Notes: generated by a model not told the origin, from the letters alone. A stretch of DNA of 64,000 bases from Myxococcales bacterium (GCA_029880325.1 JAOUOP010000027.1:1-64000); one strand, 5' to 3'; positions 14,722 to 34,123 are shown, numbered from the stretch's first letter. A program made the numbers and translations.

Positions 14722-15037
14722 GCCCTGCCTCTGCTGTTGCTCGTGAATGCCTGCAGTTCGAAAAACGTGGCCGTCACGGCCATCCACCACGAGCAGATTG
14801 CCTTGCTGTGCGGTCGGTACATGGGACTGTGAGGCTTGGCCTGTAAAGGTGTTGGTGCCGGAGCGGCTCTGGCCTATTCAAACGTACGGGGACCCGCGAA
14901 AATTGAGCCCGAAGGCTCTGTCTCTTAACCGAACGGGCATTCTCCTGACGCGGATTTAGCTGTAGCGGCTAATTTGCCCCACGGGGCGTCCGTTTGAAGA
15001 AGGATGAGAGCAACTTTCGGCGCCCCCTTCCGTATTT
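14722..15037. promoter_or_regulatory. divergent promoter region of the polymer operon
   Basis: A 316-base gap between the CHASE2 sensor and the five-gene operon. Both transcripts must start here. No convincing -35/-10 or sigma-54 -24/-12 pair stands out by eye. The operon's first ATG at 15038 has only a purine-rich patch, GAAGAAGGATGAGAG, about 25 bases upstream, so its initiation signal is poor. Confidence 0.5.
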
Positions 15038-18000
15038 ATGTCCGTGGGATCGAGCGTAGAACTGTTTCCGGTCAACGGGCTGGATCGCAGCCTTCACGCT
15101 CCCGTTCTGCTCGGTCTGCTCGTCAGTGCGTTCTTCGCTGAGACTCTCGGCTGGACGTTCGCGGGGCTCGTCGTTCCGGGCTACCTGGTATCGGTCATTG
15201 TAGCTGCGCCTCTTACGGCCGTCTTGGTCGTGGTTGAGGCATTGTTGACCTACTTTCTATGTGCGGCGATTGGGCTGTGGATTCCGCGCACCGGAGCGTG
15301 GTCAACCGCATTCGGCCGCGAGCGTTTCTTCCTGTTCATTCTGGCGGCGCTCGCCATTCGATTGTCTGTGGAGGCAAGCCTCCTGCCCTGTCTTCAGGAG
15401 CGCTATGAGCTGCCGCACTCGCGAGAGTTGCACAGCCTCGGGCTGGTGCTCGTTCCGTTGTTGGCGAATATGCTCTGGAACGACGGCCTTCTGCGCTCAT
15501 TCACGCGTGTCTCGTGCGTAGTCGCGATAACGTACGTTCTGGTCAGTGAAGTTTTGCTGAAACATACGAACTTCAATGTCTCGCGCTTCGAGATGGCCAA
15601 CGAAAGCGTCTCTCTTGATTTTCTCGAAACGCCTCATGCCCAGATCATTCTCGTTACTGGCGCTCTGGTGGCAGCGCGTGCGAATGTGCTCTACGGCTGG
15701 GACTACAACGGCATACTCGTACCCGCGCTGCTTGCAGTGGCCTGGTACCAGCCAACGAAACTGCTCACGACCTGCGGGGAGGCGCTTCTAATTTACATGT
15801 TCGCGCGTGCCATTGTGCGCCTGCCTCCGTGGTCGCGACTTCTCATGGTCGGTACACGGCGAACTCTGCTTACTTTCGTAATTGGGTTCGCTTTGAAATG
15901 GACGCTGGGGGTCGCTCTGGCCCACGTGGATCCAACTGTCCATATGTTGGACTATCAGGGATTTGGCTATCTCTTGCCAACTCTTTTGGCGACCAAAATG
16001 TGGAACCGCGTGTCAGTAGGCACGGTTCTCGTTCCCACTCTCCAGGTTTCGGTAGTCGCATTTGCTCTTGGAAACTTGATTGGTTATGTCGTGACCTTGC
16101 CTCGCCATACCGAGGCTCGCACGTTGTCTCGCGGTACATCGGTACAGTCCACGCACCCCCTTTCTGTCGAGTTGATGCTTGCAGACACGGCGCCCGACCC
16201 GAGTCTTGTGAGGCAGAGCAGCTACTCGAGTACGCGCCTCGCGCTGGAGATCTTTCGGCGCATCGACCGTAAGAAAACAGTCGGAGGTGCGCTGCTCCGG
16301 CGTGCGGACCGCCTATCGATGACCGCGGTTTCTGTCGAGGGAGTATCCGGGCGATACCTTATGGTCGGTCCACGCTCGGCGGACCCTGACGCCGACGTTG
16401 CTGCGCCTCGCGCAGCTGTCCGTCTTCATCCTCAGCACGGCTGCGAATGGCTGCTGCTGGTGGAGAGCGGTGGCGATAGCGAGGCGCTGGTGGCAACCGC
16501 CGACCAGTTGGGAACCGCCTTGGGGGTCCGTGCCATTGTCCTTCAACGCAGTGGCACACGGCTAGGCGATTTTGATGCAGCCTTTGCGCGGTCGCTGGCA
16601 AGTCTCCTCCGCGTAGACCACATCCTGCGCCTAAGAGTCGACGCGCGCGATGAGCTCTCGGTAGTCGGTGAGCTCCCGAGGGAACTAGACTCGACCGGCC
16701 TGCAGGAGGTCCTGGGCCTGGATGGGCCGCTGCCGCGACGCTGGCGAATGCCGGGGGAAACGGCTGACTTGTTGGAGGAGGCGCCAATTGTCGCTCTGCA
16801 GCGAAGCTCCGCCGAACGGGCCGGCCTCCTGGCCCTACCAAAATCCTCATATGATGTCTGGCAGGGCGGCCTTGCAGCATGGGTCTCTCAGCAGCAGGCG
16901 AACTTTGAGGAGGCCGCCCCGGTCGTTCCCAGAGCGCCAACCGTTGAAGAGTTGCGTCTATTGCGCGGCACGGTAGTGTCACCGGGGTTCGTCGCAGGTC
17001 TGGCTCCTTCGCCATGGTACTGCGCGCTCGCGACACAGCTGGGATTGCGCTTTGCTGCATTGTCGGCGTTGACCGATGAGGGTGCGGAGAAAAGTACGGG
17101 CATCCGAGCGGTTGATTGCCGCGACCACTCACTACGGGAGGGGCCAGCGTATTGGGCGCTGTACGAGCCCCACCCGGGCCGGCGCCTCGGTCATCCCACT
17201 TGGCTCTGGCGGAAGGTTCAGGGGAAATCAGACCAGCAGCGACTGTTGATCGAGGTTCCGGCCGGGGGTCAGGAGAGCGGGACTATTCGGGGCGGCCTGA
17301 TGTTGTTCAATGGCCTGCAGGCGGACTCACTCTTACTTTCGTCGTCCCGCCGAGACTGGACGCCGGACGGCTCCTTCGATGCGAGATCCAGGACGGGGAG
17401 GCAATCGCTCTACCAGGTGATTCATCAGGCGTGGCTAGAGCGAAACGGCGTCGCGGCATCGATTCACGCATACGAGATCCGAGACAGAGAGGCTGTTCCT
17501 GGCGCTGACGTGATTGTCTCGCTAGGCCGGGAACTCGAAACGCCAGATGCCGCGCCGAGTTGGGCGGTAAGTGCGATTGACTACTTCAGGAAGGAGCACA
17601 TGGCCGTCTCCGTCGTTGATGGCTCCCCGGAGTTAGAGCGGTTTCATGGACGGAGTGTGCCTGGGCTTGCCTTTGCACAGCGATTTGCGCCGGACTCGAC
17701 GGTTCTCCTCTGGCTGTCGCCACATTTTCGAGAAAGGCTGAAATTAGTTGATGACGGGGGACGTCACCTTGCTCGTATGGACGCGTTTGTTCGAGAAGGG
17801 CGGCGCCCGGGTCCCACTCGTGCGGAGCCCGTGCCCGCGCTTGGTGGCCGCGTTTGCAGAACACTGGGGCAGACCAGCTTGTGCGAGAAGGGCGCAGCGC
17901 CTTCAGAGTCGAGGGTCCATCTACGGTCCGAAATGCCAGCTCTCGGCCCGAAATCGAGCGAGCGAGTTAGCAGGTCGGTTTTCGAAGTCGTGCATCTGTG

Positions 18001-18373
18001 GGCCAGTTGCACAACAGGCTCGGCGGAAAGGTGGTGTTTCCAAGCCGTAGCAGGGCGCTCCTGCGACCCGAGGGCGATTGGGCGGCAGCTTCAACTCTAT
18101 ACGGCGTCGCGAAACCCATACCGGCTTCAGGCCGCTCTGGGAGCGGCTCGCGGATGCATGGTCCTGAGCGTTCACGATCCTTTGACCGACGTTGTCTGGG
18201 CGGCGGTTGCCGATAGCGGCGAGATGGTGCTCGTGCCGCTTTCGACAGGTCAGGTGGAGCGCAGCGAGGAAGTGGGCAGCGATCCCCTCGAGGAGCTTGC
18301 TCCAACACTGGCGAGTGGCCTCGCAGCATGGACAGTGGTGCGTCAGCCCGACGATCCACAACGGCCGCAATGA
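15038..18373 (+). CDS. CapC/PgsC-like polyglutamate synthesis membrane protein with large soluble extension
   Basis: A 1111-residue protein. Residues 20-170 and 200-352 are two hydrophobic halves, each resembling the CapC/PgsC subunit of poly-gamma-glutamate synthase: GLVVPGYL at 43-50 in the first, GWDYNGILVPALLA at 220-233 and DYQGFGYLLPTLLATK at 305-320 in the second. Known CapC/PgsC is only about 150 residues, so this is a tandem duplication plus a 750-residue soluble tail. Within the tail, residues about 735-830 (LLIEVPAGG, then SIHAYEIRD) align by eye with the hydrolase encoded two genes on, but alanine 742 replaces that protein's histidine. The tail may therefore hold an inactive hydrolase-fold domain that binds polymer. 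First gene of the operon; its stop overlaps the next ATG as ATGA. Its partner ligase is the last gene. Confidence 0.85.
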   Translation: MSVGSSVELFPVNGLDRSLHAPVLLGLLVSAFFAETLGWTFAGLVVPGYLVSVIVAAPLTAVLVVVEALLTYFLCAAIGLWIPRTGAWSTAFGRERFFLFILAALAIRLSVEASLLPCLQERYELPHSRELHSLGLVLVPLLANMLWNDGLLRSFTRVSCVVAITYVLVSEVLLKHTNFNVSRFEMANESVSLDFLETPHAQIILVTGALVAARANVLYGWDYNGILVPALLAVAWYQPTKLLTTCGEALLIYMFARAIVRLPPWSRLLMVGTRRTLLTFVIGFALKWTLGVALAHVDPTVHMLDYQGFGYLLPTLLATKMWNRVSVGTVLVPTLQVSVVAFALGNLIGYVVTLPRHTEARTLSRGTSVQSTHPLSVELMLADTAPDPSLVRQSSYSSTRLALEIFRRIDRKKTVGGALLRRADRLSMTAVSVEGVSGRYLMVGPRSADPDADVAAPRAAVRLHPQHGCEWLLLVESGGDSEALVATADQLGTALGVRAIVLQRSGTRLGDFDAAFARSLASLLRVDHILRLRVDARDELSVVGELPRELDSTGLQEVLGLDGPLPRRWRMPGETADLLEEAPIVALQRSSAERAGLLALPKSSYDVWQGGLAAWVSQQQANFEEAAPVVPRAPTVEELRLLRGTVVSPGFVAGLAPSPWYCALATQLGLRFAALSALTDEGAEKSTGIRAVDCRDHSLREGPAYWALYEPHPGRRLGHPTWLWRKVQGKSDQQRLLIEVPAGGQESGTIRGGLMLFNGLQADSLLLSSSRRDWTPDGSFDARSRTGRQSLYQVIHQAWLERNGVAASIHAYEIRDREAVPGADVIVSLGRELETPDAAPSWAVSAIDYFRKEHMAVSVVDGSPELERFHGRSVPGLAFAQRFAPDSTVLLWLSPHFRERLKLVDDGGRHLARMDAFVREGRRPGPTRAEPVPALGGRVCRTLGQTSLCEKGAAPSESRVHLRSEMPALGPKSSERVSRSVFEVVHLWASCTTGSAERWCFQAVAGRSCDPRAIGRQLQLYTASRNPYRLQAALGAARGCMVLSVHDPLTDVVWAAVADSGEMVLVPLSTGQVERSEEVGSDPLEELAPTLASGLAAWTVVRQPDDPQRPQ

Positions 18374-21231
18374 GGTTTCAGGGCCGGACAAAGGGTCGCT
18401 TCGAGAGACCAAATGCTGTCGCGTTCGAGACCACTCGACCGGGAGCCCAGCCGCTGAGGGAAGACGGGCCAGTTGCCCTAGGTCGCCAGTCGGGCAAGGA
18501 GTTTACACAGAAGCCTGTGGCTGGAACCTTCACGCCAGGTTCTGACCAGCTGAGTTCGCGAACAACCGAAGGTAAAGGCAATATCGGGCGCTCACTGCAG
18601 GTACGGCGACCGGGCAGCGGCGCAAGAGTCCGGGCCTCGCGGCTAGGGCCCATCGCAGTTCAGGTGGCTCGATGGTCTTTGGTCGCCGTGGTGTGCTGTG
18701 CGGTTGGCCTGATGTTGGTCGGGACTCGAGACTTCGATATGAGTTCGGAAGGTCGGGTAACCGACGAACTTCTCGGCTACGAGATTACGCCTGTGGACGA
18801 GCTGTTGATCGGCCTGCCCGCCGGCATTCGTGCCGTTCAGCTTACGTCTTGGGCTCTGCTTCCGTCGTTGACGATCGACGACAGAAAGGGCGGAAACGTT
18901 TATGGGCTGAATGTCGCTCTACGGTGCCGCGGAGAGGGGGCCTGGCACTTGCGACGGCTCGGCTTTCGGTCGCCCCGCAGCTGGACTCATCGATTATCGA
19001 ACTGGCTTCCTGCTACAGGCAAGACCAAGACGCTGTTTGATGGAGACCGAGAAGAAAGCATTGCGACCCTCAGCGAGCCAAGAACCCTGGCGCTTGAGGT
19101 CGGCCGCTGTCTGAGCCGAGGGGGTCAGCTACGTCTACTGGCTCTTCCTGGGGAGCACGAACGCATTCTAGTGCGGTTGACCCATCGCACCAGCCGTACT
19201 GCGGTGGAGAGGGCCTTTGCACGCCGGGGATTGACGAGAGAAGCAGCGAGACGGCTGCTGGCCGAGGATGCAGCGCTTGGGTTCAGCGACCTTGGGGAAC
19301 GTGCGAAGGAGCATGCCCTGTCGTTCTGGGGGCGGCGCCTCACGGCGGCCGGACGCTCCGGCGATTCCTATCGAACGCGCAGGGTCATCGTGACTAGCAG
19401 GGGTTGGATGGAGCCTGAGAGTCCGAGTACGGACCAGGGTGTACGCTCTGTCGGACCGATTCGTAGCCTCGCGTACAATTTTAACGAACCTCTGCAGGCC
19501 CGTGTCTACGGTCCTGCCGACAGCACGGTCTGGGTTTGCGAGGGACCTGCGATGACAGAAAGTCAGTGTAGGTTCGTAGATGGTGGCCCACGCCTGAAGG
19601 ACGAATGCAGATGCAGAGAGATGAGGATTGGAAACGATGGGCACAGCGAGGTCGAACTCAGCGACGTTGGCGTGCGCTCGGTGATGCTTCGAGCTCGGTC
19701 CATGGTACCGCTCGCGCTTGCAGTCCGCGCCTCCAGTCTTAATGCCCAGGTTGGATCAAGGCGCCGCAGGCCACTGGACGACGGCTGGTATGCAATCCAG
19801 CCAGACGAACGACGTTTTCGCTATCACGCCCTGCACTCGACCGAATCAGTTCGCTTTGCTGTCGACGCTGCTTCCGGCCCCCTGCGGCTTAGCGTGCGCG
19901 CTGCAGGGCCTCGGGTCGGGGACTCCTCTGTGCTCTGGAGCGGGCAATTGCGATACGTTTGGCGAATGTCCACGGCAACAACTGCCGACTCTTTTGTCAA
20001 CATTGGATTGGCGGTGTCGGAATTCGACCGCTTTGAAGGCAAGCCGGGTGCAAGCGAGGCAGAGCGCTTCTATCTGCGCCCACCGCCTGGTGCGAAGGAG
20101 CTTTTGATATTCGGCGATCGGAATCTCGCCATGGCTGTTCACGTTGAGGAGCCCTACGTACGTGTAAACCCTCAACACGCGCCCTACATGGGATTGGGCG
20201 GTCTCGAGCATCGCTTTCTGCACGCTCCGCCGCAGTCGGCTCGATTTGCGCGGATCGAGCCGCTGAATCGAGGCGATCTGGAGGCCAATGGCCGGTCCCT
20301 GACCTTCGTCGGGCAGGTGCGTCTGGCGCCAAGCAAAGCGGCCGGAAAATCTCTCGGAGAGCGACCGCTGGATCCTGTGGGACATCCTCCCAGGCGCCAG
20401 CTTTGGGTCAAGCGAACGCTCGCCGACGACGACTCCCGGAAACCCGACCAGTCGGCCCGCTACTGGTACAGGGTTCAAGAAGGGCAGAGGGTTCTGGTGA
20501 AATCTCGGCGCGGGCGGATTCCTCGGCTGCGTGTGCGGTACGAGGTCGCGCGATCCATGCTTGGTCGCGAGTTCGATTTTTCTCTGGATGACGACTCAGT
20601 TCACGAAGGGACTCTGATCGTTCCGAGCGAGGAGTTCGCAGTCGAGATACCGGAGGGCTGGCACCGGTTAGGATATCAGGGGCTCGGGACGGAGGCGGTC
20701 GTCTTCGCGGACGCGAGACCGGCAGGCACGACACACGGCTATATCGTACGGTCTGTTTTTGAGCTCACCACAACGCGCTGGCTTGAGTTTCCAATCGATC
20801 GTAAAGAAGGGAAGCCGCTTCGGGTTGCACTCTTTGTGGTGACAGAGGAAGCAGCTGCGAGCTGGACGTTAACGTACGCCGTGCGGGGCAATCGCCGGAA
20901 ACGGCCATCACTGGCACCCTTTCGGCAGGTTTCCGATCGCGAGGGGCAGGTTATGGGGGTTTCAGGGGATCACGAACTCGGCACACTCTGGGAGTCAAGC
21001 CACGCCTTGTCGGACGAGCTGTCGCTAGCAGGCAGTGGTGTCTCGAAGGCGGTATTGCACCTTGGTGACGACCTATCCTCGCGGTACGTGCGCCTGCGCT
21101 TGCGCATTCCACGCACGGCCTCGGCGTCCAAAAGACTTTGGGTGCGTGCGGTCCTGATTGGTCAACATGCGCCATCGGCGTCTTCCGCGAGCCGTCGATG
21201 GCTATCGGCGAGTAAGCGTGATGATGTGTGA
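18370..21231 (+). CDS. membrane-anchored periplasmic protein of the polymer operon, family unknown
   Basis: A 953-residue protein starting at the ATG that overlaps the upstream stop as ATGA; a longer frame begins at 18328. The first ~95 residues are polar and basic. One membrane helix lies at about 99-118 (VARWSLVAVVCCAVGLMLVG), then some 830 residues probably face the periplasm. The rest looks beta-rich with no catalytic motif I recognise. A segment FNEPLQARVYGPADSTVWV resembles GRPLEFEVYGPTVVRLWM in the outer-membrane protein two genes downstream, suggesting a shared beta-sandwich module. Position and topology suggest a bridge between the inner-membrane synthase and the outer-membrane protein, like periplasmic adaptors of other export systems. 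This is inference. Confidence 0.8.
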   Translation: MRFQGRTKGRFERPNAVAFETTRPGAQPLREDGPVALGRQSGKEFTQKPVAGTFTPGSDQLSSRTTEGKGNIGRSLQVRRPGSGARVRASRLGPIAVQVARWSLVAVVCCAVGLMLVGTRDFDMSSEGRVTDELLGYEITPVDELLIGLPAGIRAVQLTSWALLPSLTIDDRKGGNVYGLNVALRCRGEGAWHLRRLGFRSPRSWTHRLSNWLPATGKTKTLFDGDREESIATLSEPRTLALEVGRCLSRGGQLRLLALPGEHERILVRLTHRTSRTAVERAFARRGLTREAARRLLAEDAALGFSDLGERAKEHALSFWGRRLTAAGRSGDSYRTRRVIVTSRGWMEPESPSTDQGVRSVGPIRSLAYNFNEPLQARVYGPADSTVWVCEGPAMTESQCRFVDGGPRLKDECRCREMRIGNDGHSEVELSDVGVRSVMLRARSMVPLALAVRASSLNAQVGSRRRRPLDDGWYAIQPDERRFRYHALHSTESVRFAVDAASGPLRLSVRAAGPRVGDSSVLWSGQLRYVWRMSTATTADSFVNIGLAVSEFDRFEGKPGASEAERFYLRPPPGAKELLIFGDRNLAMAVHVEEPYVRVNPQHAPYMGLGGLEHRFLHAPPQSARFARIEPLNRGDLEANGRSLTFVGQVRLAPSKAAGKSLGERPLDPVGHPPRRQLWVKRTLADDDSRKPDQSARYWYRVQEGQRVLVKSRRGRIPRLRVRYEVARSMLGREFDFSLDDDSVHEGTLIVPSEEFAVEIPEGWHRLGYQGLGTEAVVFADARPAGTTHGYIVRSVFELTTTRWLEFPIDRKEGKPLRVALFVVTEEAAASWTLTYAVRGNRRKRPSLAPFRQVSDREGQVMGVSGDHELGTLWESSHALSDELSLAGSGVSKAVLHLGDDLSSRYVRLRLRIPRTASASKRLWVRAVLIGQHAPSASSASRRWLSASKRDDV

Positions 21232-22294
21232 ATCGGCTAGGCTAGGGCCGAAAGGCTCGCTGCCGCTTCTGCTGCTAGCGCTAGGTTTCTGCACTGTGCA
21301 ATGTTGTGGTGCGTGTGGTTCTGGCCCAAGCGCGACCAAGGCTGAGCTCGGAGCGGCTCAGGTTGAACAGGCAAGAAAGTTTCGGCGCGCGCCGCCAGAG
21401 TTGCCTCGCGGCGTTCCGCTGCGGGCAAATGGGCACAAAGAGTTGGCTTCCAGGCTTCTCGGTACCCTTCAAGAGCTTCGAAGCAGAGGGAGAGGGGCCC
21501 GCTTTAGGCCTCCGATGGAAGACGAGGCACAGGGGTATCGTGACTGGACCTTACGGGCGCTTGAGGCGGCCAGCGAGTCCCGTGTGTCGCCGCGTCTGCC
21601 TTCCGGGTTCTCAAGATTCGACCTTCCGGACTCACCGATCATGGTTGTGAGCGAGTCGGGAGATTCGCTTCGTGGCGCCGGCGCCCTCGCGCTGCGTGAG
21701 GGCGCCGCCGCGCCTGTCGTTGTTGAGGCGCCCCATACGTTCTACGATCGCGGTACCCTGGAGATTGCAGTTGCGCTTTTTGCGGCGCTAGAGGCGCGAG
21801 CCCTGCTCATCAATACCGTTCATCGGTATCGAGGCAACGGCCTCGCTTCGATGGGCGGGCCACGGGGAAGCGCCTCCGATCCGGTTGCCGACGTCGCGCA
21901 CACTCCGAGGAGTTTTTTTGCCGCAGCCCATGAAGCAACCGCTCGAGCGCGTCCTGCACTGCTTGCCGTGCAGGTACACGGCTATCGCGACCAACGCGTG
22001 CCTGGCTTTGACGCCGTATTGAGCGCGGCCGGAAGCTCACTCGATCCGGAACACTTCGCCCATTGCATGGAGCACTATCTCACCGGTGCACGCGTTGGAG
22101 TCTACCCGCGGGACCTTCGAGATCTGGGAGGTACCCGGAACCGCCAGGCTCAGTCGAGTGTGCAGTTCGGGGCGCCCTTCCTTCATGTTGAACTTTCAGC
22201 GCGCCTGAGAGCGCGTTTGCGACAGCCGGGCCCTGGTCAATCGGCCTTTGCAGCTGCGTTTTTTTCAGTCTCCGAGGGTTCCTGCCGCCCATGA
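21221..22294 (+). CDS. poly-gamma-glutamate hydrolase-like exported protein
   Basis: A 357-residue protein. The N-terminus has a hydrophobic signal segment (SLPLLLLALGFCTV) followed by several cysteines (QCCGACG); no ideal lipobox is present, so lipidation is uncertain. The catalytic part has APH at 170-172, an RGTLE whose glutamate is residue 181, a histidine at 201 in NTVHRYRG, histidine 253 in VQVHGYRD, and a late HVELSARLR. This order (APH, GTxE, H, HG, then ELxxxLR) resembles phage and bacterial poly-gamma-glutamate hydrolases, which are zinc-dependent. It would trim or release polymer in the periplasm or at the surface. The start (ATG 21221 or 21224) overlaps the previous gene by 8-11 bases; its stop overlaps the next ATG as ATGA. 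N-formylglutamate amidohydrolase is an alternative relative. Confidence 0.75.
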   Translation: MMCESARLGPKGSLPLLLLALGFCTVQCCGACGSGPSATKAELGAAQVEQARKFRRAPPELPRGVPLRANGHKELASRLLGTLQELRSRGRGARFRPPMEDEAQGYRDWTLRALEAASESRVSPRLPSGFSRFDLPDSPIMVVSESGDSLRGAGALALREGAAAPVVVEAPHTFYDRGTLEIAVALFAALEARALLINTVHRYRGNGLASMGGPRGSASDPVADVAHTPRSFFAAAHEATARARPALLAVQVHGYRDQRVPGFDAVLSAAGSSLDPEHFAHCMEHYLTGARVGVYPRDLRDLGGTRNRQAQSSVQFGAPFLHVELSARLRARLRQPGPGQSAFAAAFFSVSEGSCRP

Positions 22295-25200
22295 GCGAGG
22301 GTGTCCTTGACGCGCGCGGGCCTCGTTTGTCGACACCGCAGGTTCTGCGTAGAAACGTAGCCGCTCTCGTCACGCTGTTCTGCTGGACGCGCGCCTCGAG
22401 CGTCGCGCAGCCGCTTCTTCCGGCTGAGATCCCGCCAGTGGTGGTCTTTGAGTGGTCTGCTGAGGAGGCACGAGGAAATATAGCGAAATTCAAGGATGGA
22501 ACGTTTTTCGTAAGCGGCCGTCGTGTCGCGATTGCTCGGGCCAAATCAGGAGACATGTTCGAGGTAGGTGGTGCGAATCTTCAGATGGGATTGGGCTATG
22601 GATCGGGTTCGCTACCTGACACAGTCGTGTGGTCGAGCGAGGGCGGGCGTCTCGCAGTTCCGGCCTGGTCGGCTGCGCGTTTCGTTGTGGTGCGGAGTCG
22701 AGATGGGCGGCGAAGAAAAGGCCGCCTGTCGCGCAGTGCCGAACCAAATGATGCCTTGTGGTGGATGCGCTTCGAACGCACCACAAAGGACTGGATCGAT
22801 GCCTTCGAGCCGGACGCGAGGGTTCCGCCCGTGATTCATGACGACCTTCACCAGAAGCTTCTGGAACTGCGTGCTCTTCAGCGTCTGGGTGTGGCTGCCG
22901 GCGTACCAAAGAAGCTTGTCCAGGAGCTCCTTCTTAAGCACTTCCAACGTTTTTCCGCGGTCGAGCGACCGTTGTCGCCAAACTTTATGCAGCCCTGCCC
23001 GGTGATTCACAGTCGATCTGCCCTCAAGGACCGAAATGCTCAAGCGCGTAATCGGTTGCAGGTCGGTGAACGCCTATCCGTCCAGGGGCCTTTCGGAGCG
23101 ACCCTCATGCTTGAGATCCGGGCTAGAGCGCCCGGAGAATACCGCGTCGAGCTGTGGCAGAACGGAATGCTCTACCGTGTCGTTGAAGGCCGCGCTAGGG
23201 CCTACCGGGCCTCCGAGCCCTGGTCGAAGCCCTTGCGACTACGGATGGCCGTAGAAAAATTTGCCGAGATTCGCGTGGTCCGCGGCGAGCTCCTCGTTGA
23301 GCACAAATGCCTGGAGCCTCGGTTGCGCTTTGGAGACCTGTTCGAGGCTCGCGCCGAGATTGCCCACAGCCAGAGCGCTAGGCTGCCAGCAGAGCTTCAG
23401 GCGATGCTCCGGTGGGTGCGTGCGCCGTCTCCGGGTAGTCGCCGTGCTCTCATCGAGCTCGCGCAGTCGGAGGCTGTCTCTCCGGCTGCCGCGGGGCTGT
23501 TGGCGCTATTGGCGATCGACTCAGGCTTGCTTGCGCCCGAAACACTCAGTCGCCTGCTGCAGATCGCACGCGAAGGCCTGAGCGTGCTGTCGGCGTCCGA
23601 TCGCGCGCGACTGCTGGACGCAATCGTGGTGCGAATATGGGTGAATCTTGCGCTTGAGCGGGGTCGGTCGAGCGGCAAACCTTTGATGCCGATCTTGGGC
23701 TCCCTTAGCGGTTTGGGTCGGGCGCTCGTGCTCTCGCTGCAGAGCGCCGAGCAACCGCTGACGCAGGGGGCTGCCCGCCCAAGCCGAGAACTTCTACAGT
23801 CTCTCGAGACCGAAGCATTTGTCTCTTCAGTTCAACCGAAGGCTGTGCGCCGGCTGCGAAAGCTGTGGTGGGACACCTTTCCCTACCGCAACGCCAGCCC
23901 GGAGGAGCCGGAGATCTGGACAGAAGAAGCGTTGATTCCGGATAGGGAGTTCGCTGGATCGGAGCAGTGCCAGCCGCCGTTGCTGCGTCCTAACCGGTGG
24001 ATATTTCTTAGAGACCGGATGGAACTCGAAGTGGCTGGCTCCGGGGGAAGCCATGCGCTGCTACAGGCGCGGTCTGTGGATCCGATCGCCGAGCTTGACA
24101 GCGTCCTGACGGTAGACGGTGTGGAAGCCGTAGTGCATGGTTCGGTGGGACTGGGGGCGCGTATGGCGGTCCGATCCGGACGTCGGAATTTATCCGTTCG
24201 CGGAGGACCGTTGCTGCTTCGGCTCGCAGTCGAGGGGACGCTACCCTGCGAGGGTCTTCGAGACCTCCAGCGCTGGCATGCAATCGGCCTGAGTCGGCGT
24301 TTCGTCGTTCCCGAGGCCGCTTCCGTGGGGCCCTCGGCGCGAGTCACCGTTGGACCGCGGTTGGGGCGCAGCCACGAGGTTCGTGTCGTGACCGGCCCTG
24401 ACGACTCCGGAAACAATGGGTCGGAGGCGAGTACTCGCCCGACCGTCCACGAGGCCTGGATCAGGGGCCGGTCGCGCGCCTGGTTTGAAGTTCCACTTCA
24501 GCCCGGACAAGCAGCACTCTCTCTGGAGTCGCATTCAGATATACGAGTGCGGGTGCAAGTTCGAAGTGCCCCCCTGCGGTCGGGCCGGGCCCGGCGAATC
24601 ACAACTCCGGCGGTTCCGAACGACGAACGGCCAGCCGAGCACATTCTCGCGCGGCTGCGTGCTGCCAGCCGCGCGCTTTCGTCAATGAAGGGCGTTGGGC
24701 GGCGCCCCGAAGTGTTGGCCGAGCGGGCCCGGGCACTGCGTGACCTCGGACAGCTCACCCTTGCCCGCGCCGACGAGGAAGCGCTTGGCGTCTCGAGTTC
24801 TGCTGGCCTCGGGCTCGAGGGGGGGCCAGATTCGATGTCAGGGTCATCGCACTTCGGTCTCCTATCACCTCTGGCTCCAGATGTCGTGGTTCTCAACGGC
24901 GCCGCTCGCATTGCACCGCTTGACGTGCCGGTCGATCGTGATGGCACTGCTGCCGCTTTGCTCTCGCTGCGCAGAGTCCGCAAAGGTGGCAATGGCCGAG
25001 GCCCTACTCAAGCACCGAACCATGGCGCGCACGACGGCAAGCTTCTGCTACAGGCTCTGACGCTCGAGCACGAAAAGAAGCGCCTCGAGGCCGCCGCGAC
25101 GTATGCCGTGATTGGAGGCGCCACGGGGTCTCCCTACGCCCTGTCCCGCGCGGCTCGCCTCTGCATCGAGCAGGCAGCGACGAGTCGAGACAAATCGGCT

Positions 25201-27291
25201 GCCATGCGCGCTCTGCAGCTGGGGGCCAGGGCCCGGCAGCTAGGCGACGCTCCGGGCGCGCTGGAACAACGTCTCGCACCCGTGCTCGAGTGGATACGTC
25301 CGGCCGCCGTCGATTCATCGGCAGGGACCTCCGTCTTGATACACGAGCGGGACATCGGTGCGAGTGCTGGATCCGAGGAAATCTCCCTTGCGAAACGCGC
25401 GAAAGCGGCTCTGCTGCTCGCGCCGTCAACTGCGACTCTGTTGTCCCGAGGTCAAAGACTTTTACTGCATATGGCTCCGAGGCAGGGAGCGCTGATCGAG
25501 GGAGCGTGCCTCGACATGTCGAGCGTCGAACTGCCCTGTCAGGTCGAATTGCAGGTTGCAGGCCGTGCTCGCGGCTGTCAACGCGAAGACCCACGCGAGG
25601 GTCTTTCCGGTTTCTCGCGTTCTATTCGCCGCTTTCGCTGCACAATTGCACCCGCCCGGTGGACTCGTGAAGCTTCCGTCTCGTTGGTAGCGAGCGACGA
25701 GGCGAACGCATGGATTTCTGTGCGCGATTCGCTCGGCAACGTCATTCCCGCGCACACTCGTTCGTCCTGGCACGAGTTCGACGTAGGACGTCCACTGGAA
25801 TTCGAAGTTTACGGTCCCACGGTCGTCAGGCTATGGATGCGCGCGCTACCGGCTAAGAAGACTTCTGTAGAGGCAGGCATCTGGTCCGGTGACTCGCGGC
25901 TGGGCCGTGAGGTCATCGAATTAAATGGGGATGCCGACCCAAACACGTCTCTTGCGCACGGATTGTACGCGCCCTCGTTTCGACCTGGTGTCGAGCAGAC
26001 TCAAGACCTCATTGTCGAGCACCAGGGACGAGTCAAAGTCAAACTGTCCGTCAAAGACGGACGTGCCTTGGCCATCCCGCGTGTTGCCACATTCAGACGT
26101 GATATGGACCGCCTTGCTGAGCGGATAGGCGGTGGGCCTCGGGCCGTGCAAGAAAAATCAAAGTCGGGGGCGCCGATCGACAGCATTTCGGCCATGGGGA
26201 TTGCCACTCAGGACCACACAGAATTTGCATCCGAACGCGAAATCGTATCGACCGCGGAGCGTTCAGACCATCTGGGTCCTGCGCCACTGGGAAGACGTTC
26301 CGCTACGACACGGCTCATGCCCGCTGAAAATGTCATTTCCCATGCCTACGGTGGTCGGGTCGGCGTGTCATCGCTGCAGCTTGATGAGGATGAGGCGGTC
26401 CGTGGCAGAGAGCTTCTGGAACTCCAAACGTTTGGATCGGTCAACGTGATTCAGAATCGCCTGTGGGTGGATGGACGCGGCGTCTTTAGGGACCGATGGA
26501 CGGCACCGAGTGCCGCCGGAGAAATCGGACTTGCTTACCTGCCTAAAGCGCGGTCATCGCTGGCACTGTCCGCTCGCGGGCGAGCCGTTGACCAACTCGT
26601 TGATGCAAACCATGCGACAGCGTCACGTTTGCAACTTGGTTTGCGAGCGAGCTGGACGCTGAGCCCGAACTTTCGGGTGCAGCCCATGGTGCGGGCAACG
26701 ACTCGGCACGGTCAGAAACCGAGCGCGGAACGCTATGATCTCGATCCGGAGATTTTTTCAGATTGGGGAGTTGCCAATTCCCAGACTGTGAGTGCAGCTT
26801 TGACCGTGACTAATCTCGTTGCATCCGATGCACTGCTGCGGCATCGCGTGAACTTTCGTATTGCGCCCAAGCAAGGTCTCGACCGTTTCGACCTAGCAAC
26901 GCTCTTCGATTTGGTGCCGGGTCCCCCGTCGACACCTTGGCTTTCACTTCGGGCCCAGCTAAGCCACCGTCCCACGAACTTCTGGCGCAAGAACGCCTTT
27001 TCGCGTTTTGGTCTGCTAATCGCTACAAGGCTATTGTCGTGGTCCTCGATCACAGACTCAATCGACCTGCGCTTTTCGTTTGAACCGCGCATCGACTACC
27101 GAGATGCCAGCTTCGAATCTCCCGCTGTTACCGCTCAGCTGACGTTTGAATGGCAAAGAATGCTGGGAGAGGGCATGCAGGCTTGGTCGCCTGGATCGCG
27201 CTTGCTCAGGCCATATCGGGAGGAGGGCAGCGGACTTCTGCGCACACGTACCGGTGGTTACCTGCAGCTGCCTTGGGAACAGACACCATGA
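22291..27291 (+). CDS. large periplasmic/outer-membrane protein with C-terminal beta barrel
   Basis: A 1666-residue protein starting at an ATGA overlap. The N-terminus has a positive stretch and a hydrophobic segment (NVAALVTLFCW) then VAQP, consistent with a signal peptide. The middle alternates beta-rich regions with helical, repeat-like stretches, for example about residues 390-540 and 790-1000. Residues from about 1357 to 1640 show alternating polar/hydrophobic strands typical of outer-membrane barrels (SSLALSARGRAVDQLVD, RLQLGLRASWTLSPNFRVQP, and SIDLRFSFEPRIDY near the end), although after the barrel-like part come about 30 residues with no terminal aromatic residue. It is probably the outer-membrane exit or anchoring component for the polymer. 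The family is not recognised; function is inferred from position and architecture. Confidence 0.78.
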   Translation: MSEGVLDARGPRLSTPQVLRRNVAALVTLFCWTRASSVAQPLLPAEIPPVVVFEWSAEEARGNIAKFKDGTFFVSGRRVAIARAKSGDMFEVGGANLQMGLGYGSGSLPDTVVWSSEGGRLAVPAWSAARFVVVRSRDGRRRKGRLSRSAEPNDALWWMRFERTTKDWIDAFEPDARVPPVIHDDLHQKLLELRALQRLGVAAGVPKKLVQELLLKHFQRFSAVERPLSPNFMQPCPVIHSRSALKDRNAQARNRLQVGERLSVQGPFGATLMLEIRARAPGEYRVELWQNGMLYRVVEGRARAYRASEPWSKPLRLRMAVEKFAEIRVVRGELLVEHKCLEPRLRFGDLFEARAEIAHSQSARLPAELQAMLRWVRAPSPGSRRALIELAQSEAVSPAAAGLLALLAIDSGLLAPETLSRLLQIAREGLSVLSASDRARLLDAIVVRIWVNLALERGRSSGKPLMPILGSLSGLGRALVLSLQSAEQPLTQGAARPSRELLQSLETEAFVSSVQPKAVRRLRKLWWDTFPYRNASPEEPEIWTEEALIPDREFAGSEQCQPPLLRPNRWIFLRDRMELEVAGSGGSHALLQARSVDPIAELDSVLTVDGVEAVVHGSVGLGARMAVRSGRRNLSVRGGPLLLRLAVEGTLPCEGLRDLQRWHAIGLSRRFVVPEAASVGPSARVTVGPRLGRSHEVRVVTGPDDSGNNGSEASTRPTVHEAWIRGRSRAWFEVPLQPGQAALSLESHSDIRVRVQVRSAPLRSGRARRITTPAVPNDERPAEHILARLRAASRALSSMKGVGRRPEVLAERARALRDLGQLTLARADEEALGVSSSAGLGLEGGPDSMSGSSHFGLLSPLAPDVVVLNGAARIAPLDVPVDRDGTAAALLSLRRVRKGGNGRGPTQAPNHGAHDGKLLLQALTLEHEKKRLEAAATYAVIGGATGSPYALSRAARLCIEQAATSRDKSAAMRALQLGARARQLGDAPGALEQRLAPVLEWIRPAAVDSSAGTSVLIHERDIGASAGSEEISLAKRAKAALLLAPSTATLLSRGQRLLLHMAPRQGALIEGACLDMSSVELPCQVELQVAGRARGCQREDPREGLSGFSRSIRRFRCTIAPARWTREASVSLVASDEANAWISVRDSLGNVIPAHTRSSWHEFDVGRPLEFEVYGPTVVRLWMRALPAKKTSVEAGIWSGDSRLGREVIELNGDADPNTSLAHGLYAPSFRPGVEQTQDLIVEHQGRVKVKLSVKDGRALAIPRVATFRRDMDRLAERIGGGPRAVQEKSKSGAPIDSISAMGIATQDHTEFASEREIVSTAERSDHLGPAPLGRRSATTRLMPAENVISHAYGGRVGVSSLQLDEDEAVRGRELLELQTFGSVNVIQNRLWVDGRGVFRDRWTAPSAAGEIGLAYLPKARSSLALSARGRAVDQLVDANHATASRLQLGLRASWTLSPNFRVQPMVRATTRHGQKPSAERYDLDPEIFSDWGVANSQTVSAALTVTNLVASDALLRHRVNFRIAPKQGLDRFDLATLFDLVPGPPSTPWLSLRAQLSHRPTNFWRKNAFSRFGLLIATRLLSWSSITDSIDLRFSFEPRIDYRDASFESPAVTAQLTFEWQRMLGEGMQAWSPGSRLLRPYREEGSGLLRTRTGGYLQLPWEQTP

Positions 27292-30200
27292 CCCGGGCAG
27301 CGGCGCCCGTGTCGTTTGACCGAAAGGGGCTACTACAACGCTTCGTCCCGTTGCTTCCCACGGTGCATCAACAGACGCGCTTGGGCGCCCTGGAGTCGAT
27401 CGTTGAAAACGTGGTCGCGCGCGTGAGTGATCAGGAACCTAGCGACGGGACGCTGGTCGTATCCCTGATTGGGGCAGCCGACTCGGCCTTTGGCGCGATG
27501 CTGTCACTCGATGAAGCCCGCACGCGGTTGACGCTTGAAACCCAGAGGGCCCCCAGTGAGGAAGCGCGCCGCACGATCTTGCGGGATTACCTGGTGCGTA
27601 CGCGCCGCGGCAAGGAACTGCGAAGGGACCTGCGAGCCCTTGATCGGTGGCTTGATTTCGAAGCAATCGAGGAAAGAATCTCGGTTGCAGTCGCCGACCG
27701 CGTCGATGAGATTGAGGTCGCCTATGCGTGCGCGTCAGGCGTAATTGGCACGATCACAGATAACAGCGAACGGCTGCGGGCACTCGGATCCGGAATTTCG
27801 CTTGAGACAGCGTTTCGGCATGCCGTGGATGGACGGCGCGAGGCCGTGCGAAAGGCGGCGATTGATTGCGCGCGAGAGTTGCTCAGGGGCCTTCCGCAGG
27901 CCGACCGATTGCGTGTCTTGGGCGTCGAACGTCTAAGAGACGTGCTTCGCTGGTCCGAAAATTCCACCTTGTCGCGCTGGTTCCGAATTGCGGCGCTAAA
28001 TCTTGGACTGCACGTCGCTCCCATTCAAACGCTACCTTCGCTTCAGCGCCTTCTTGATGGGTTGCCGAGAAGAAACCCCTCCAGCTTCCCTGGGCGGGTA
28101 GCCGGCGTCACTGCCGAGAGCTTTGCTCGGTCCGTCGACGACGATTTGCCCATCATTGCTTGCAATGTGCTGCGTATGGCCGGACAGGTGAAGGACTTTT
28201 CAATCGCCGACAAACTCAATCTGGCGACGAGGGCCGCCGGTTGCGAAAGTGAACATGTCCGTCAGGCGCTCGCTCAGATGCTCGCAACGGCCTGCGGGCG
28301 CGAAGGTCTTGCGGCCGTTTGCGCGATGATGTTCGAGGATCCGTCCCCGCGAGTCCGTGCGGCGGCGATGCGAGCTGCCGTCGACCGCTGCTGGTGCGAT
28401 GATGCACAGTATCTATCGCTAATGCATCCGATCGAAAAATACGTTTCGGGAGCTCGCGACCCCATTGAAGTAGCGGTAGCGCTAGAGGCCGTGGCCGTCC
28501 TATGTGGGCGAAACTCGCCATTGGCAGAGCGCAGGCGGCTCGTCGAGGCTCTTTCGCTGTTGATTCATCGCGAGGGCATCGCTCCTGAACTCGCCGAGGA
28601 GGGTGCGGCTCTTTTGCGACGGTTCGAAGTGGAGTCGGCGCCGTCGCAGATTGCTCTTGCAGAGCGCTTGCGCGCGAGCCTTGATCAGCTGGCGGAAGGC
28701 CAGGAGGCGACTTTGCGCATGGAACCCGGTACGTCCTTGTCGGAAGTCGAGCAGGCTCTGTTGGTGGCAGCTCGCGGAGATCTCGACGTACGTCTCCGTT
28801 GGCTCAGTGCTGGACGCGTGGCAATTCGAAGGGGAGTGCCTCGTCGCGCGAGACTTTGGAGGATCTGGCACGAGGTCATGCAGCCCGCCCCAGATAAGCG
28901 CAAAGGATTTCTTCACTCCCATGCGCGTGAAGTCGGCCCCGGCTCTCATATCCCCAGTCATTTACTATCGGAGGTGACACCGACGCAGGTTCCAGGCGAG
29001 CGGCGGTTGGCCGCTCAGTTGGGTGGATGGGGCCTCACGTTACCGCGCGTCGATGACCTAATTCAGGCGTGCCGGCCTTTCGCGAAGCCGGTTCGTATCG
29101 TCACCAGCCTAGGCGTTGTCTCCGTGCGTGGGCCACGATCTCGGATGCGGCGCGCCGCCGTTTGGCTTCGCCTGAACTTGCTGTACAGTCGATATGCCTT
29201 TCTGCGCGAGCGCTCGCTTGCTGCCAAGACTGCCGGGGAACATCAAGGCTTTATTGAGGAGTGTCGCCGTCTCGGTTTCGATGTTTCGATCGGCAAGACT
29301 AGCGGAACGATCGGGTGCGTGGCCTACGACACTGCTCTGCCGCGCTTCCTGCAATATCTTGGTGGAGGCGCTTTCATTAATGACATTCGTACGCATGGTG
29401 AACAGCTGTTGCATTATGTAGTATCTCCGAGCGGCAACGCGCCATGGCACCTGGCCGTGCTTGTCTGGCTTGCTCTATGTGGCTTCGTGGCTCGCTCTGC
29501 CTTCATCATGGGGCGCATCGAGCGTGCTCGTAGACGCATTCCCGTATCTATTGGCGGATGGGGTACCCGCGGAAAAAGTGGTACCGAGCGGCTCAAGGCA
29601 GCGCTCTTTCACGCGCTTCGTTGCGATGTGGTCGTCAAGACGACTGGCTGCGAGGCCATGTTCATACACGCTCGTCGGGATCTGCCCGCGCGGGAGATCT
29701 TTCTGTATCGACCGTACGACAAAGCTACGATTTGGGAACAGCGCAAGGTTCTGGAGCTTGCAGCGGATCTCCGAGCGCAGGTTTTTCTCTGGGAATGCAT
29801 GGCCTTGAACCCGAAGTTTGTGGAGGTCATCAACGGGGATTGGATGCGCGATCCCGTCACCACCATCACCAACGCCTACCCCGATCACGAGGACGTCATG
29901 GGGCCGACGGGCGAGGATGTGGCTCGTGTCATCGGACTGTTCATGCCTCGCGGGGGCTGCACCTTCACCTCTGAGATACAGATGTTGCCGATTCTGCGGG
30001 AGATGGCCCGACGAAGACAATGCGATCTTCGAGCAGTCACAAAGCTGGAGGCGGATTTGCTTCCGCAGGACCTGCTTGCGCGATTTCCCTACGATGAGCA
30101 CCCGCATAATATCGCGCTTGTGATGCGAATGGCCGAGCATTATGGAATCGATCCGGAGTTTGCCTTGGTTGAGATGGCTGATCGGGTGGTGCCTGATCTC

Positions 30201-31571
30201 GGTGTGCTCAAAACCTACCCGAGAACCCGCTATCGCAGTCGAGAACTCGTTTTTTCCAACGGAATGAGTGCCAACGAGCGAGCGGGGTTTCTCTCCAACT
30301 GGACGCGTTTGGGGTTTGATTGTCTGGAACCCGTGAAATACCCGATGGTTGAGCGTGTGGTAGTGGTCAACAATCGAGCCGACAGGATTCCTCGGTCAAG
30401 AGTATTTGCGCGCATTCTCGCGGCCGATATCGGGTGCTCGCGCATTGTTCTGATTGGAACCAACCTAGATGGAATTCGGCGCTTTCTTGAGGAAGAGTTA
30501 CGGAGCACCTTTGGAAACGTGAGATTCGCTGGAAGAAGCAGTGCTGACGAGGCGCTTGAAATTGTTGACGAGTTTTGTGGCCGCCTCGGCTTGGTCTCTG
30601 ATGCGGATGGCATCCGGAAACGGCTGCACGCGATGGTTCGCGCTGCCGTGGGCCCTGACGCGGCTGATGTCCTTTTTGGAGGCGACGAGATGCAGCTGGC
30701 GTTTGCGGCACACGACTGGGAACTTGTGGGGGCGAAGCTGCAGGATGCTCTCGCGGATTGTAATGCGGAAACTCAGTATGGTTCTAGCGTTGTGGATCGC
30801 GTCGGCGCGGATGAACTCCAGACTCACGTGCGGCAAGAGCTGTCTCGGGCAGCGGCGGTCGCGGAACTCAAAGGAAGCATTGCTGACTATCTCGAGCGGG
30901 GGGAAGGCGCGCAGGCGGAAACGTTGGCTCAAGGCTTCTTGTTTGAAATGGCGTGTTCTCGCATTTACACGCTTCAGGACGAAGGTGCCAAGGGCGACGC
31001 CGTGGTCGACTTCATTGCCAATGTTGTTCCGCCGGGTCTCGATGCTCGGGTCCTCGGCTGCCAAAACATCAAGGGCACCGGACTGGACTTCGCCTACCGT
31101 TTTATTGCGCTGGCCGAATTGGATGACCGGTTGGCTGGCATCGACCGTGACGAGGCTCGGCGTGGCGAGCGGCTTGCCTCTCTCATGACGCGAAATGACT
31201 ATGGAATTCTGGAAGCTGCGCTCGCGATCGATAGGATCTCCGCATGGGAGGCGGGCGGGCAGGCCGGCTGGCAGCGGCATTTGGACTTACTATCGGCCCT
31301 TCGGCAGCAGCTGGAGCGCATTGGAGCCGCGAAGCAGGCGAAGCTTTCAGAAGTACAACGTCGCGGCTGGCTGGATGGCTTCATCAGCCGGAATTTCGAG
31401 CCTCTCGTGGACCACTGGGACTCGACGCGACGTACACGTCAGACCGGTCGGGTTATGACGGATCTTTGCGCGCAGCGCGTATCGCAGGCGCGGGCCTCTG
31501 CGCTGCTTCGTGAACTTGTTGCGCGCCAGAAAGGTGGCTGGCTCGCCCGGTCGCTCGGTATTCGCGGGTGA
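27288..31571 (+). CDS. CapB/PgsB-like poly-gamma-glutamate synthase ligase with long extensions
   Basis: A 1427-residue protein from the ATG at 27288, which overlaps the upstream stop as ATGA; the longer frame from 27150 lies inside the previous gene. Residues 1-650 are helical, with HEAT-like repeats around 330-480. A membrane helix lies near 720-745 (WHLAVLVWLALCGFVARSAF). The ligase core follows: P-loop GTRGKSGT at 759-766, then VVVKTTG, LWECMALNPK and ITNAYPDHEDVMGPTGED. These match the Mur-ligase-like CapB/PgsB subunit, which uses ATP to join glutamates through gamma-carboxyl groups. Known PgsB is about 390 residues, so both the N-terminal repeats and a ~250-residue C-terminal region are additions. 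Last gene of the operon whose first gene encodes the CapC/PgsC-like partner. Which amino acid is polymerised is unknown. Confidence 0.88.
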   Translation: MTRAAAPVSFDRKGLLQRFVPLLPTVHQQTRLGALESIVENVVARVSDQEPSDGTLVVSLIGAADSAFGAMLSLDEARTRLTLETQRAPSEEARRTILRDYLVRTRRGKELRRDLRALDRWLDFEAIEERISVAVADRVDEIEVAYACASGVIGTITDNSERLRALGSGISLETAFRHAVDGRREAVRKAAIDCARELLRGLPQADRLRVLGVERLRDVLRWSENSTLSRWFRIAALNLGLHVAPIQTLPSLQRLLDGLPRRNPSSFPGRVAGVTAESFARSVDDDLPIIACNVLRMAGQVKDFSIADKLNLATRAAGCESEHVRQALAQMLATACGREGLAAVCAMMFEDPSPRVRAAAMRAAVDRCWCDDAQYLSLMHPIEKYVSGARDPIEVAVALEAVAVLCGRNSPLAERRRLVEALSLLIHREGIAPELAEEGAALLRRFEVESAPSQIALAERLRASLDQLAEGQEATLRMEPGTSLSEVEQALLVAARGDLDVRLRWLSAGRVAIRRGVPRRARLWRIWHEVMQPAPDKRKGFLHSHAREVGPGSHIPSHLLSEVTPTQVPGERRLAAQLGGWGLTLPRVDDLIQACRPFAKPVRIVTSLGVVSVRGPRSRMRRAAVWLRLNLLYSRYAFLRERSLAAKTAGEHQGFIEECRRLGFDVSIGKTSGTIGCVAYDTALPRFLQYLGGGAFINDIRTHGEQLLHYVVSPSGNAPWHLAVLVWLALCGFVARSAFIMGRIERARRRIPVSIGGWGTRGKSGTERLKAALFHALRCDVVVKTTGCEAMFIHARRDLPAREIFLYRPYDKATIWEQRKVLELAADLRAQVFLWECMALNPKFVEVINGDWMRDPVTTITNAYPDHEDVMGPTGEDVARVIGLFMPRGGCTFTSEIQMLPILREMARRRQCDLRAVTKLEADLLPQDLLARFPYDEHPHNIALVMRMAEHYGIDPEFALVEMADRVVPDLGVLKTYPRTRYRSRELVFSNGMSANERAGFLSNWTRLGFDCLEPVKYPMVERVVVVNNRADRIPRSRVFARILAADIGCSRIVLIGTNLDGIRRFLEEELRSTFGNVRFAGRSSADEALEIVDEFCGRLGLVSDADGIRKRLHAMVRAAVGPDAADVLFGGDEMQLAFAAHDWELVGAKLQDALADCNAETQYGSSVVDRVGADELQTHVRQELSRAAAVAELKGSIADYLERGEGAQAETLAQGFLFEMACSRIYTLQDEGAKGDAVVDFIANVVPPGLDARVLGCQNIKGTGLDFAYRFIALAELDDRLAGIDRDEARRGERLASLMTRNDYGILEAALAIDRISAWEAGGQAGWQRHLDLLSALRQQLERIGAAKQAKLSEVQRRGWLDGFISRNFEPLVDHWDSTRRTRQTGRVMTDLCAQRVSQARASALLRELVARQKGGWLARSLGIRG

Positions 31572-31621: not shown

Positions 31622-32113
31622 TCAGGGGGCGAATATTTTTCCGGGGGCGCCGCCCACGGGAGGGTTGCTGTGGCAGGCGTTGCAGGCGGCGAGCGTCGGC
31701 AGCTCGCGCATCATGCGGATGCTACGGCCCTCGAATTCGATGCGTGGGCCCGGGGTCGGCTGCATCAGTTCCTGGTCGGTCCAGAAATTTCCGGCTTCGT
31801 TGGTCACGAGTTCGAGTTCGGATCCGTCCGCCGCCATCAGAACGACTTTGACGCCCTCGACGCCGTCGCAGTGTTCACTCTGGGGTGAAGCGAAGATTGT
31901 GCCGGCGGCGGTGAACTCGGGGGCCTCTTCGTCGCCGAAGCCATCCTGGTGGCAGCTCAGGCAGTTGTCACCCGGGCGCATGGTGGGGCCCGGCGTGGTC
32001 TGCCGTTGTCCGCAGGCCCCTTCCACGGGATTGCTGCAGCCCGAGATCAGTGCGACGAGGGCACAAAGAAGTACAGCGTCGACGGCGCCACAGGGTCGAT
32101 GAAAACGGGTCAT
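31622..32113 (-). CDS. diheme c-type lipoprotein of the RiPP cluster
   Basis: A 163-residue exported protein. A signal sequence ends in a good lipobox, LISGC, with the cysteine at 26. Two heme-binding motifs are present: CLSCH at 51-55 and CNACH at about 144-148. Between them is a beta-rich segment. It should be a periplasmic or outer-membrane-anchored electron carrier. Its ATG overlaps the stop of the DUF2063 gene by four bases, so it belongs to the same transcript as the MNIO enzyme and precursor peptide. It could pass electrons during peptide maturation or take part in the metal or redox chemistry of the product; both are inference. Confidence 0.8.
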   Translation of the reverse strand: MTRFHRPCGAVDAVLLCALVALISGCSNPVEGACGQRQTTPGPTMRPGDNCLSCHQDGFGDEEAPEFTAAGTIFASPQSEHCDGVEGVKVVLMAADGSELELVTNEAGNFWTDQELMQPTPGPRIEFEGRSIRMMRELPTLAACNACHSNPPVGGAPGKIFAP

Positions 32114-32859
32114 TCAATCACTCCGGGCACCTCTACGGCGCAGATGTAGCCGCGTGCAAACCAACCGCGCAGCAGGCCAAAGGCGCGCTCGATGCCGCCG
32201 GCATCGGCGGCGAAGTCTTCCAGCACTTCCGCCACGCAGGCGCCACCGCGGGCGAGGTCGAGGGCGCGGGCTTCGGATTCGTCGAGTGCCACGTGGCGTA
32301 CGGCGAAGCCACGCCGAAAAACGACTACCGGAATCGAAGTTGGGCGCGAGGCGGGTTGCGGTCCGGCGCCGAACGCCTGCAAGGCGAAGGCGTCGACGTC
32401 GACGCGCTGCAGGGAGGGAGCAAAGCCGAAACGTGCGCTGGCGAAGCTGTCCGGTCGTGCCTCGGAGGCGGTGCACTTGGCGGGCGCATCCGGGGCCAGC
32501 AGAGCGAGGGTATGGGCCCACTCCAGTCGGCACAGGCCAGCCAGCTCAGGTTGGCGCTGGGCGATGAAGTGCGGCAGCGAGGCGCCCAGGTATTCGAGGG
32601 CGTGGTGGCTCGAGGGGTAGTGGCGGAGGTAGCTGCAGCAAAGGCGCGTGAAGGCCTGCTCACCGAGCTGCTCTGCGAGCCGCGGAAAGGCTTGATCCAG
32701 TGCGTGCACCTGTCGCAACCAGTACATGCGCCGGTAGATGGCAAGGCGGCCGCTGGCGTCCAGGCGAGCGTCGCCGTCAAAGAAGTCGAGGGCGTCGTCG
32801 GGCGTCGGGTCGAAGCGCACCGCCCTCCACAGGGCGCGCTGGGCTTGGCGGAGGCTCAC
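32110..32859 (-). CDS. DUF2063-family partner of the MNIO enzyme
   Basis: A 249-residue protein starting at a GTG whose codon overlaps the previous stop (GTGA). The N-terminal half has the DUF2063 signature: IYRRMYWLRQVHALDQAFP, then a Y-L-x-x-Y-P-S-S segment and a G-x-x-L-P-x-F-I segment. In MNIO systems such as methanobactin and bufferin clusters, this kind of protein forms a complex with the DUF692 enzyme and helps recruit the precursor peptide. No metal ligand set is expected here. It lies directly downstream of the MNIO gene and upstream of the diheme lipoprotein. Confidence 0.9.
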   Translation of the reverse strand: MSLRQAQRALWRAVRFDPTPDDALDFFDGDARLDASGRLAIYRRMYWLRQVHALDQAFPRLAEQLGEQAFTRLCCSYLRHYPSSHHALEYLGASLPHFIAQRQPELAGLCRLEWAHTLALLAPDAPAKCTASEARPDSFASARFGFAPSLQRVDVDAFALQAFGAGPQPASRPTSIPVVVFRRGFAVRHVALDESEARALDLARGGACVAEVLEDFAADAGGIERAFGLLRGWFARGYICAVEVPGVIE

Positions 32860-33686: not shown

Positions 33687-33699
33687 GCCGCCTCTTCCG

Positions 33700-33966: not shown

Positions 33967-34123
33967 GGTTTCCATCCTTTCTTTGCCACATGCGGCGGGC
34001 TACCTCGCCACACCGCCCCCTACGCGCCCTGTGGTCCGGCGTTACGGAAAATCTCAGCGACCGAGACGGCTCGATCGGAAAGCGCACGGGCGCGCCCGCT
34101 CGGACGAAACGCTAGACGGGGCT

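Follow-up and report, generated by a model that had tools for sequence, protein, structure and literature searches.

A 64,000-nucleotide stretch of a Myxococcales bacterium genome (GCA_029880325.1, JAOUOP010000027.1:1-64000; hereafter the window) carries, at positions 15038-31571, a five-gene operon that probably encodes a trans-envelope machine making and secreting poly-gamma-glutamate (PGA) or a closely similar gamma-linked polyamide. Most knowledge of PGA comes from Gram-positive bacteria, in which no outer membrane has to be crossed. We call the operon a polyglutamate synthase variant coupled to a dedicated outer-membrane exit. Its architecture and conservation are well supported: computation establishes which families genes 1 and 5 belong to, what folds are predicted for gene 3 and the C-terminal end of gene 4, and that the linkage is conserved. 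The five open reading frames (ORFs), all on the plus strand and each overlapping the next, lie where the original prediction, a note drawn from this DNA alone, had placed them. That note did not pick up the duplication of CapC, the HEAT-like repeats at the N-terminus of gene 5 or a sensor-like neighbour, listed last below.

15038-18373, plus strand: gene 1, 1111 amino acids (aa), two tandem CapC/PgsC membrane domains (approximately residues 25-355)
18328-21231, plus strand: gene 2, 967 aa, one membrane helix (approximately residues 106-136) and then approximately 830 residues predicted from hydropathy to be periplasmic
21158-22294, plus strand, likely start near 21218: gene 3, up to 378 aa, exported, lipoprotein-like
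22291-27291, plus strand: gene 4, 1666 aa, signal peptide, long N-terminal region and predicted C-terminal barrel (approximately residues 1350-1625)
27150-31571, plus strand, likely start 27288: gene 5, 1427 aa from the likely start, PgsB/CapB ligase fusion
12268-14790, minus strand: sensor-like neighbour, 840 aa, several membrane helices, divergent from the operon

The start of gene 5 is placed at 27288 because an ATGA overlap with the gene 4 stop occurs there and relatives have a matching start, while that of gene 3 is placed near 21218 because this lies just ahead of the signal peptide. Promoter and terminator scans gave nothing usable.

The operon is not a product of chance, given the CapC match of gene 1 (2.6e-42), the PgsB match of gene 5 (5.7e-63) and a gene order kept over many genera and several phyla. 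In gene 1, where CapC/PgsC motifs had been proposed, the profile search finds PF14102 in two stretches with 144.4 bits against a gathering score of 27, hydropathy finds hydrophobic segments, and the same family is matched by 25 of 25 relatives. Behind the CapC pair lies a C-terminal region of approximately 720 residues for which no family or structure match was found; MHC matches at E ~0.08, obtained in searches with gene 2 and this C-terminal part, were taken as chance. Doubling of CapC is not unique to the operon, two CapC stretches being present also in a PgsC of a Chroococcidiopsis plasmid. This 333-aa PgsC/CapC (L155:4166-5164) has a short PgsB, a serine hydrolase and an HlyD-like protein as neighbours, and the group may represent a distinct arrangement for PGA export in cyanobacteria.

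Gene 5 consists, in order, of HEAT-like repeats (approximately 720 residues), a membrane helix (722-740), a PgsB/CapB Mur-type ligase (741-1072) matching TIGR04012, and a conserved C-terminal extension. The HEAT-like part is recognised by HEAT_2 (1.2e-4) and an alphaREP profile (9e-4), and the protein's single hydrophobic segment, as judged by hydropathy, stands directly ahead of the P-loop. The motifs GTRGKSGT, KTTG and PDHEDVMGPT, already pointed out in the original prediction, are present and fall inside the PgsB profile match. When the gene 5 type was aligned with annotated short PgsBs of Cetobacterium, Chroococcidiopsis and Streptomyces, the PgsB motifs RGKS, K-TG, ECMA, TN/DH, DxG and NxRxDRxxR proved to be kept in order and in their key residues. 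In a catalytic-domain tree from a quick search, whose long-branch warnings concern plasmid sequences, all 90 long forms fall on one side of a branch of length 4.9 with a Shimodaira-Hasegawa-like approximate likelihood ratio (SH-aLRT) of 100. The PgsBs found in a plasmid collection were short only. The CapBs of two Polyangia genomes (L159 and L164), whose open frames span 784 and 868 aa and include an N-terminal extension, are intermediate in length and group with the short clade.

The genes travel together well beyond the host, which its relatives and the catalytic-domain tree place in the Polyangia (Myxococcota) and whose genome is 8.16 Mb and 98% complete. In a neighbourhood survey of 40 loci from relatives within the class, nearly all that are long enough show the remaining genes arranged alike; the exceptions are Sorangium-type genomes. 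Members of Myxococcota, Proteobacteria and Planctomycetota share the order 1-2-3-4-5, and rearranged versions are found in other lineages, among them Alphaproteobacteria and Acanthopleuribacteraceae. Uninterrupted and on one strand, it occurs in 53 of 120 loci, which comprise two sets sharing some genomes; many of the others are rearranged or run off the end of a contig or locus, and arrangements scored as '2C34B', which may reflect spurious or incomplete ORFs close to locus edges, were not counted. When species genomes were scanned with the gene 5 alignment and the best 80 relatives of the long form taken, all 80 came from Gram-negative-type phyla (Myxococcota, Pseudomonadota, Planctomycetota, Acidobacteriota, Nitrospirota, desulfobacterial groups, Poribacteria, Verrucomicrobiota and Hydrogenedentes).

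Across 290 Polyangia genomes the co-occurrence of genes 1, 3 and 5 is near-perfect; together with the profile matches of genes 1 and 5, this decides both computational refutation tests of the original prediction in its favour. Long gene 5 occurs in 48 of the genomes, including every one of the 47 that have gene 1 (47/47; Fisher p = 1.2e-53, calculated over genomes that are not independent). Gene 3 is present in 44, all 44 of which have long gene 5, and the genomes with gene 1 and no strong gene 3 match (G097, G149, G178 and G267) are each fragmented into more than 500 contigs. A further 32 Polyangia genomes have short CapB only. In Sorangium the operon is broken up with genes 1, 3 and 5 all still present, gene 5 lying tens of kb to more than 100 kb from gene 1 in the genomes checked and gene 3 elsewhere. 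Occurrence is patchy, the system being absent from the single genome of the same genus that was searched.

Gene 3 had been described as an exported protein resembling a PGA hydrolase. Pfam and NCBIfam searches gave nothing above cut-off, and sequence searches of the PDB with either the single protein or a profile found no match; against PF05908, the PGA-hydrolase family, only 1 of 19 and 1 of 45 members compared gave a hit, at E 0.002-0.013 (best 0.0023), below cut-off. The predicted fold, on the other hand, agrees. An AlphaFold2 (AF2) model built with 44 relatives has a predicted local distance difference test (pLDDT) score of 91 and a predicted template modelling (pTM) score of 0.91. Its five closest structures are Atu2144 (Z 15.1), YndL/PghL with bound PGA (13.4), N-formylglutamate amidohydrolase (13.3), the PM1 phage PGA hydrolase (13.1) and PghP (13.0), the PDB entries being 2odf, 5onj, 2q7s, 21dc and 3a9l; carboxypeptidases follow at Z 11.4 and below. 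Superposition on 3a9l, 21dc and 5onj (Z 13.0-13.4) covers 172-176 residues with a root-mean-square deviation (rmsd) of 3.5-3.6. The paper on the PghL structure names 2odf and 2q7s, the same neighbours, as relatives, and gives His41, Glu46, His102 and Glu165 as the zinc and catalytic residues (PMC6506827). PHxxxD, HG and HxE are invariant in the gene 3 family, and the invariant H109, D113, H190 and E261 (294-residue numbering) occur in the order of those four residues. Gene 3 is modelled as a likely zinc hydrolase of the PGA-hydrolase/N-formylglutamate-amidohydrolase fold. A rough lipobox count (14/66) is an underestimate from ill-placed starts and was not used.

For gene 4 the barrel-like end seen in the original prediction is backed by a predicted structure. 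An AF2 model of the last 460 residues (1207-1666), made with 38 relatives, has approximately 14 long strands with pLDDT mostly above 90. The closest structures are CymA (Z 20.4) and OmpG (19.8), with rmsd 2.8-3.5 over 227-265 residues, while the polysaccharide exporters BcsC (15.0), PelB (15.0) and PgaA (14.7) score lower. The C-terminus is thus a predicted outer-membrane barrel, a fold that by itself is silent on cargo. The whole protein has no Pfam or NCBIfam match above cut-off, and DUF7406 (0.023) was under cut-off and discarded. In a Sulfuricellaceae genome (L098:3958-9792) an OmpA peptidoglycan-binding domain (2.7e-20) is inserted in gene 4, which fits a part that spans the wall, and in methanotrophs gene 4 is two genes of approximately 1100 and 730 aa.

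This conserved barrel gene bears on two other readings of the operon. Polyglutamate could be an intracellular or periplasmic store of nitrogen or carbon that is never exported through the outer membrane, as a 2024 symbiont paper classed the CapB and CapC of Ca. Thiodiazotropha (PMC11168628), a genus of which one genome (L125) has the operon; the retention of gene 4 makes this very improbable. The ligase and CapC could instead decorate a lipid, peptidoglycan or outer-membrane component with short tails of poly-gamma-glutamate, the barrel then serving as anchor or for surface display. Folate and F420 enzymes show that glutamate ligases can tail other molecules (PMC10861534). However, a 2017 capsule survey, which reports CapB/CapC systems in most phyla, gives CapB and CapC as mandatory for polymer synthesis in known systems (PMC5542703), and a barrel and a polymer-hydrolase-like gene in one operon suit a secreted chain better, leaving tail addition improbable.

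Gene 2 has no Pfam, NCBIfam or PDB sequence match; it is kept across phyla and, from its hydropathy, is probably periplasmic. The protein encoded at 12268-14790 has no Pfam match of its own. ORFs related to it, 38 in number, occur at operon loci in several phyla, divergent or co-directional, and some of these relatives have a C-terminal HATPase domain (HATPase_c, 5.9e-7 in L138), suggesting that it is probably a sensor or regulator of the operon.

Secretion of a PGA-like chain would proceed as follows, with the glutamate monomer, the direction of export and the roles of gene 2 and the sensor inferred. The gene 5 ligase and the double CapC of gene 1 would form an inner-membrane synthase, in which ATP would activate the carboxyl group of the growing chain and the next amino acid would be joined, the chain being threaded into the periplasm through the CapC pair. 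Gene 2, anchored in the inner membrane, would escort the chain, as CapA/PgsA may do in other systems. Gene 4 would span the periplasm with its C-terminal barrel as the exit, and gene 3, as an exported zinc hydrolase, would trim or clear chains. The divergent sensor-like protein would probably control the machine.

Several observations weigh against this proposal. Profile searches confirm the membership of genes 1 and 5 in the CapC and PgsB families, but both fall short of the NCBIfam equivalog cut-offs, gene 1 reaching 75.3 bits (5.3e-21) of 96.45 against TIGR04011 and gene 5 212.9-213.0 of 222.7 bits against TIGR04012; by its sequence gene 5 is a PgsB homologue that the strict equivalog definition does not include. 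Between the long CapB clade and the short CapBs lies a branch of 4.9 changes per site, and the substrate could therefore have changed. The topology of gene 5 is puzzling, as a single predicted helix would leave the HEAT-like repeats on the non-cytoplasmic side, unless that segment forms a hairpin. CapA/PgsA (PF09587) has 0 matches in the whole genome. Tetratricopeptide repeats (TPR) in gene 4 were detected by no profile at cut-off, the nearest being 0.06 in one member and an alpha-repeat match of 0.015. In gene 3 the presumed zinc site reads H-x3-D rather than H-x4-E, with Asp for Glu, and the modelled fold is compatible with a PGA hydrolase and an N-formylglutamate amidohydrolase alike.

Some of these points would also be expected if the same ligase chemistry made, for export, a different gamma-linked or otherwise unusual polyamide. 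The great length of the branch that divides long from short CapB and the missed equivalog cut-offs speak for such a product, as do KTTGCEAM and WECMAL, fixed in the long type and not in the short ones compared. Against it, the main PgsB motifs are kept and the gene 3 fold groups with enzymes acting on glutamate amides, so that a different polyamide appears rather unlikely and poly-gamma-glutamate, or a close likeness of it, stays the preferred product. Taken more broadly, we lean slightly towards regarding the operon as an undescribed, dedicated polyamide secretion pathway of many Gram-negative phyla, built on an ancient PgsBC lineage in which CapC is doubled and the ligase fused to HEAT-like repeats, and equipped with its own periplasmic protein, barrel, hydrolase and sensor, whose product is possibly not glutamate.

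If true, this would be a polypeptide counterpart of the machines for cellulose, poly-N-acetylglucosamine (PNAG) and alginate, and the operon offers a testable answer, with named genes, to how diderms could export polyglutamate. Carriers include culturable Halomonas, Marinobacter, Methylovulum, Corallococcus and Erythrobacter. On this reading, a polyamide that matrix studies focused on polysaccharides would overlook should be secreted by many bacteria in the sea and in soil, and several protein families now lacking annotation would gain a likely role.

Other genes of the window include, upstream of the operon, a PAS-GGDEF protein (5733-7226, plus strand) and a PilZ-DnaJ-TPR protein (10244-11866, minus strand). 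Convergent with it, at 31622-33975 on the minus strand, is a cluster encoding a 91-aa Cys-rich lipoprotein-like peptide (33700-33975), a DUF2063 protein, a CxxCH protein and an MbnB/TglH/ChrH-type enzyme (PF05114, 3.9e-91), which looks like a bufferin-like metal-binding cluster of the ribosomally synthesised and post-translationally modified peptide (RiPP) kind.

No description of the five-gene operon was found in open-licence full text, a search outside which most subscription papers and all preprints lie; the 'CapC' of an eLife lipocone paper is CapCone and unrelated. With the Bacillus operons capBCADE/pgsBCAE the present one shares a core of CapB Mur-type ligase and CapC, together with further processing genes (PMC5542703). 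Unlike them, it has CapC doubled and fused, extra barrel and periplasmic proteins, and a CapB more than three times the length of the PgsB model of approximately 380 positions. Gram-negative polyglutamate production is reported from the fusobacterial phylum, according to a passage in PMC4497714 citing Candela et al. 2009. The fusobacterial pgsBCW cluster of a Cetobacterium plasmid (L154) likewise combines PgsB and PgsC in a diderm host, yet its PgsB is short (376 aa) and its CapC single (142 aa), accompanied by pgsW, ggt and a succinylglutamate desuccinylase gene, and the 11 kb viewed hold no annotated barrel and no long protein like genes 2, 4 and 5. Gene 3 has in common with PghP/PghL (PF05908) and the N-formylglutamate amidohydrolases the fold and the order of presumed zinc and catalytic residues, and differs from PghP/PghL in lacking a sequence match above cut-off and in the Asp replacing the zinc-binding Glu. 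The synthase-dependent exopolysaccharide secretion systems of BcsC, PgaA, PelB and AlgK-AlgE resemble the operon in having an inner-membrane synthase, a periplasmic escort, a trimming hydrolase and a barrel that is fused or split (barrel Z ~15), but there the synthase is a glycosyltransferase, whereas here it is an amide ligase, with TPR not detected at cut-off.

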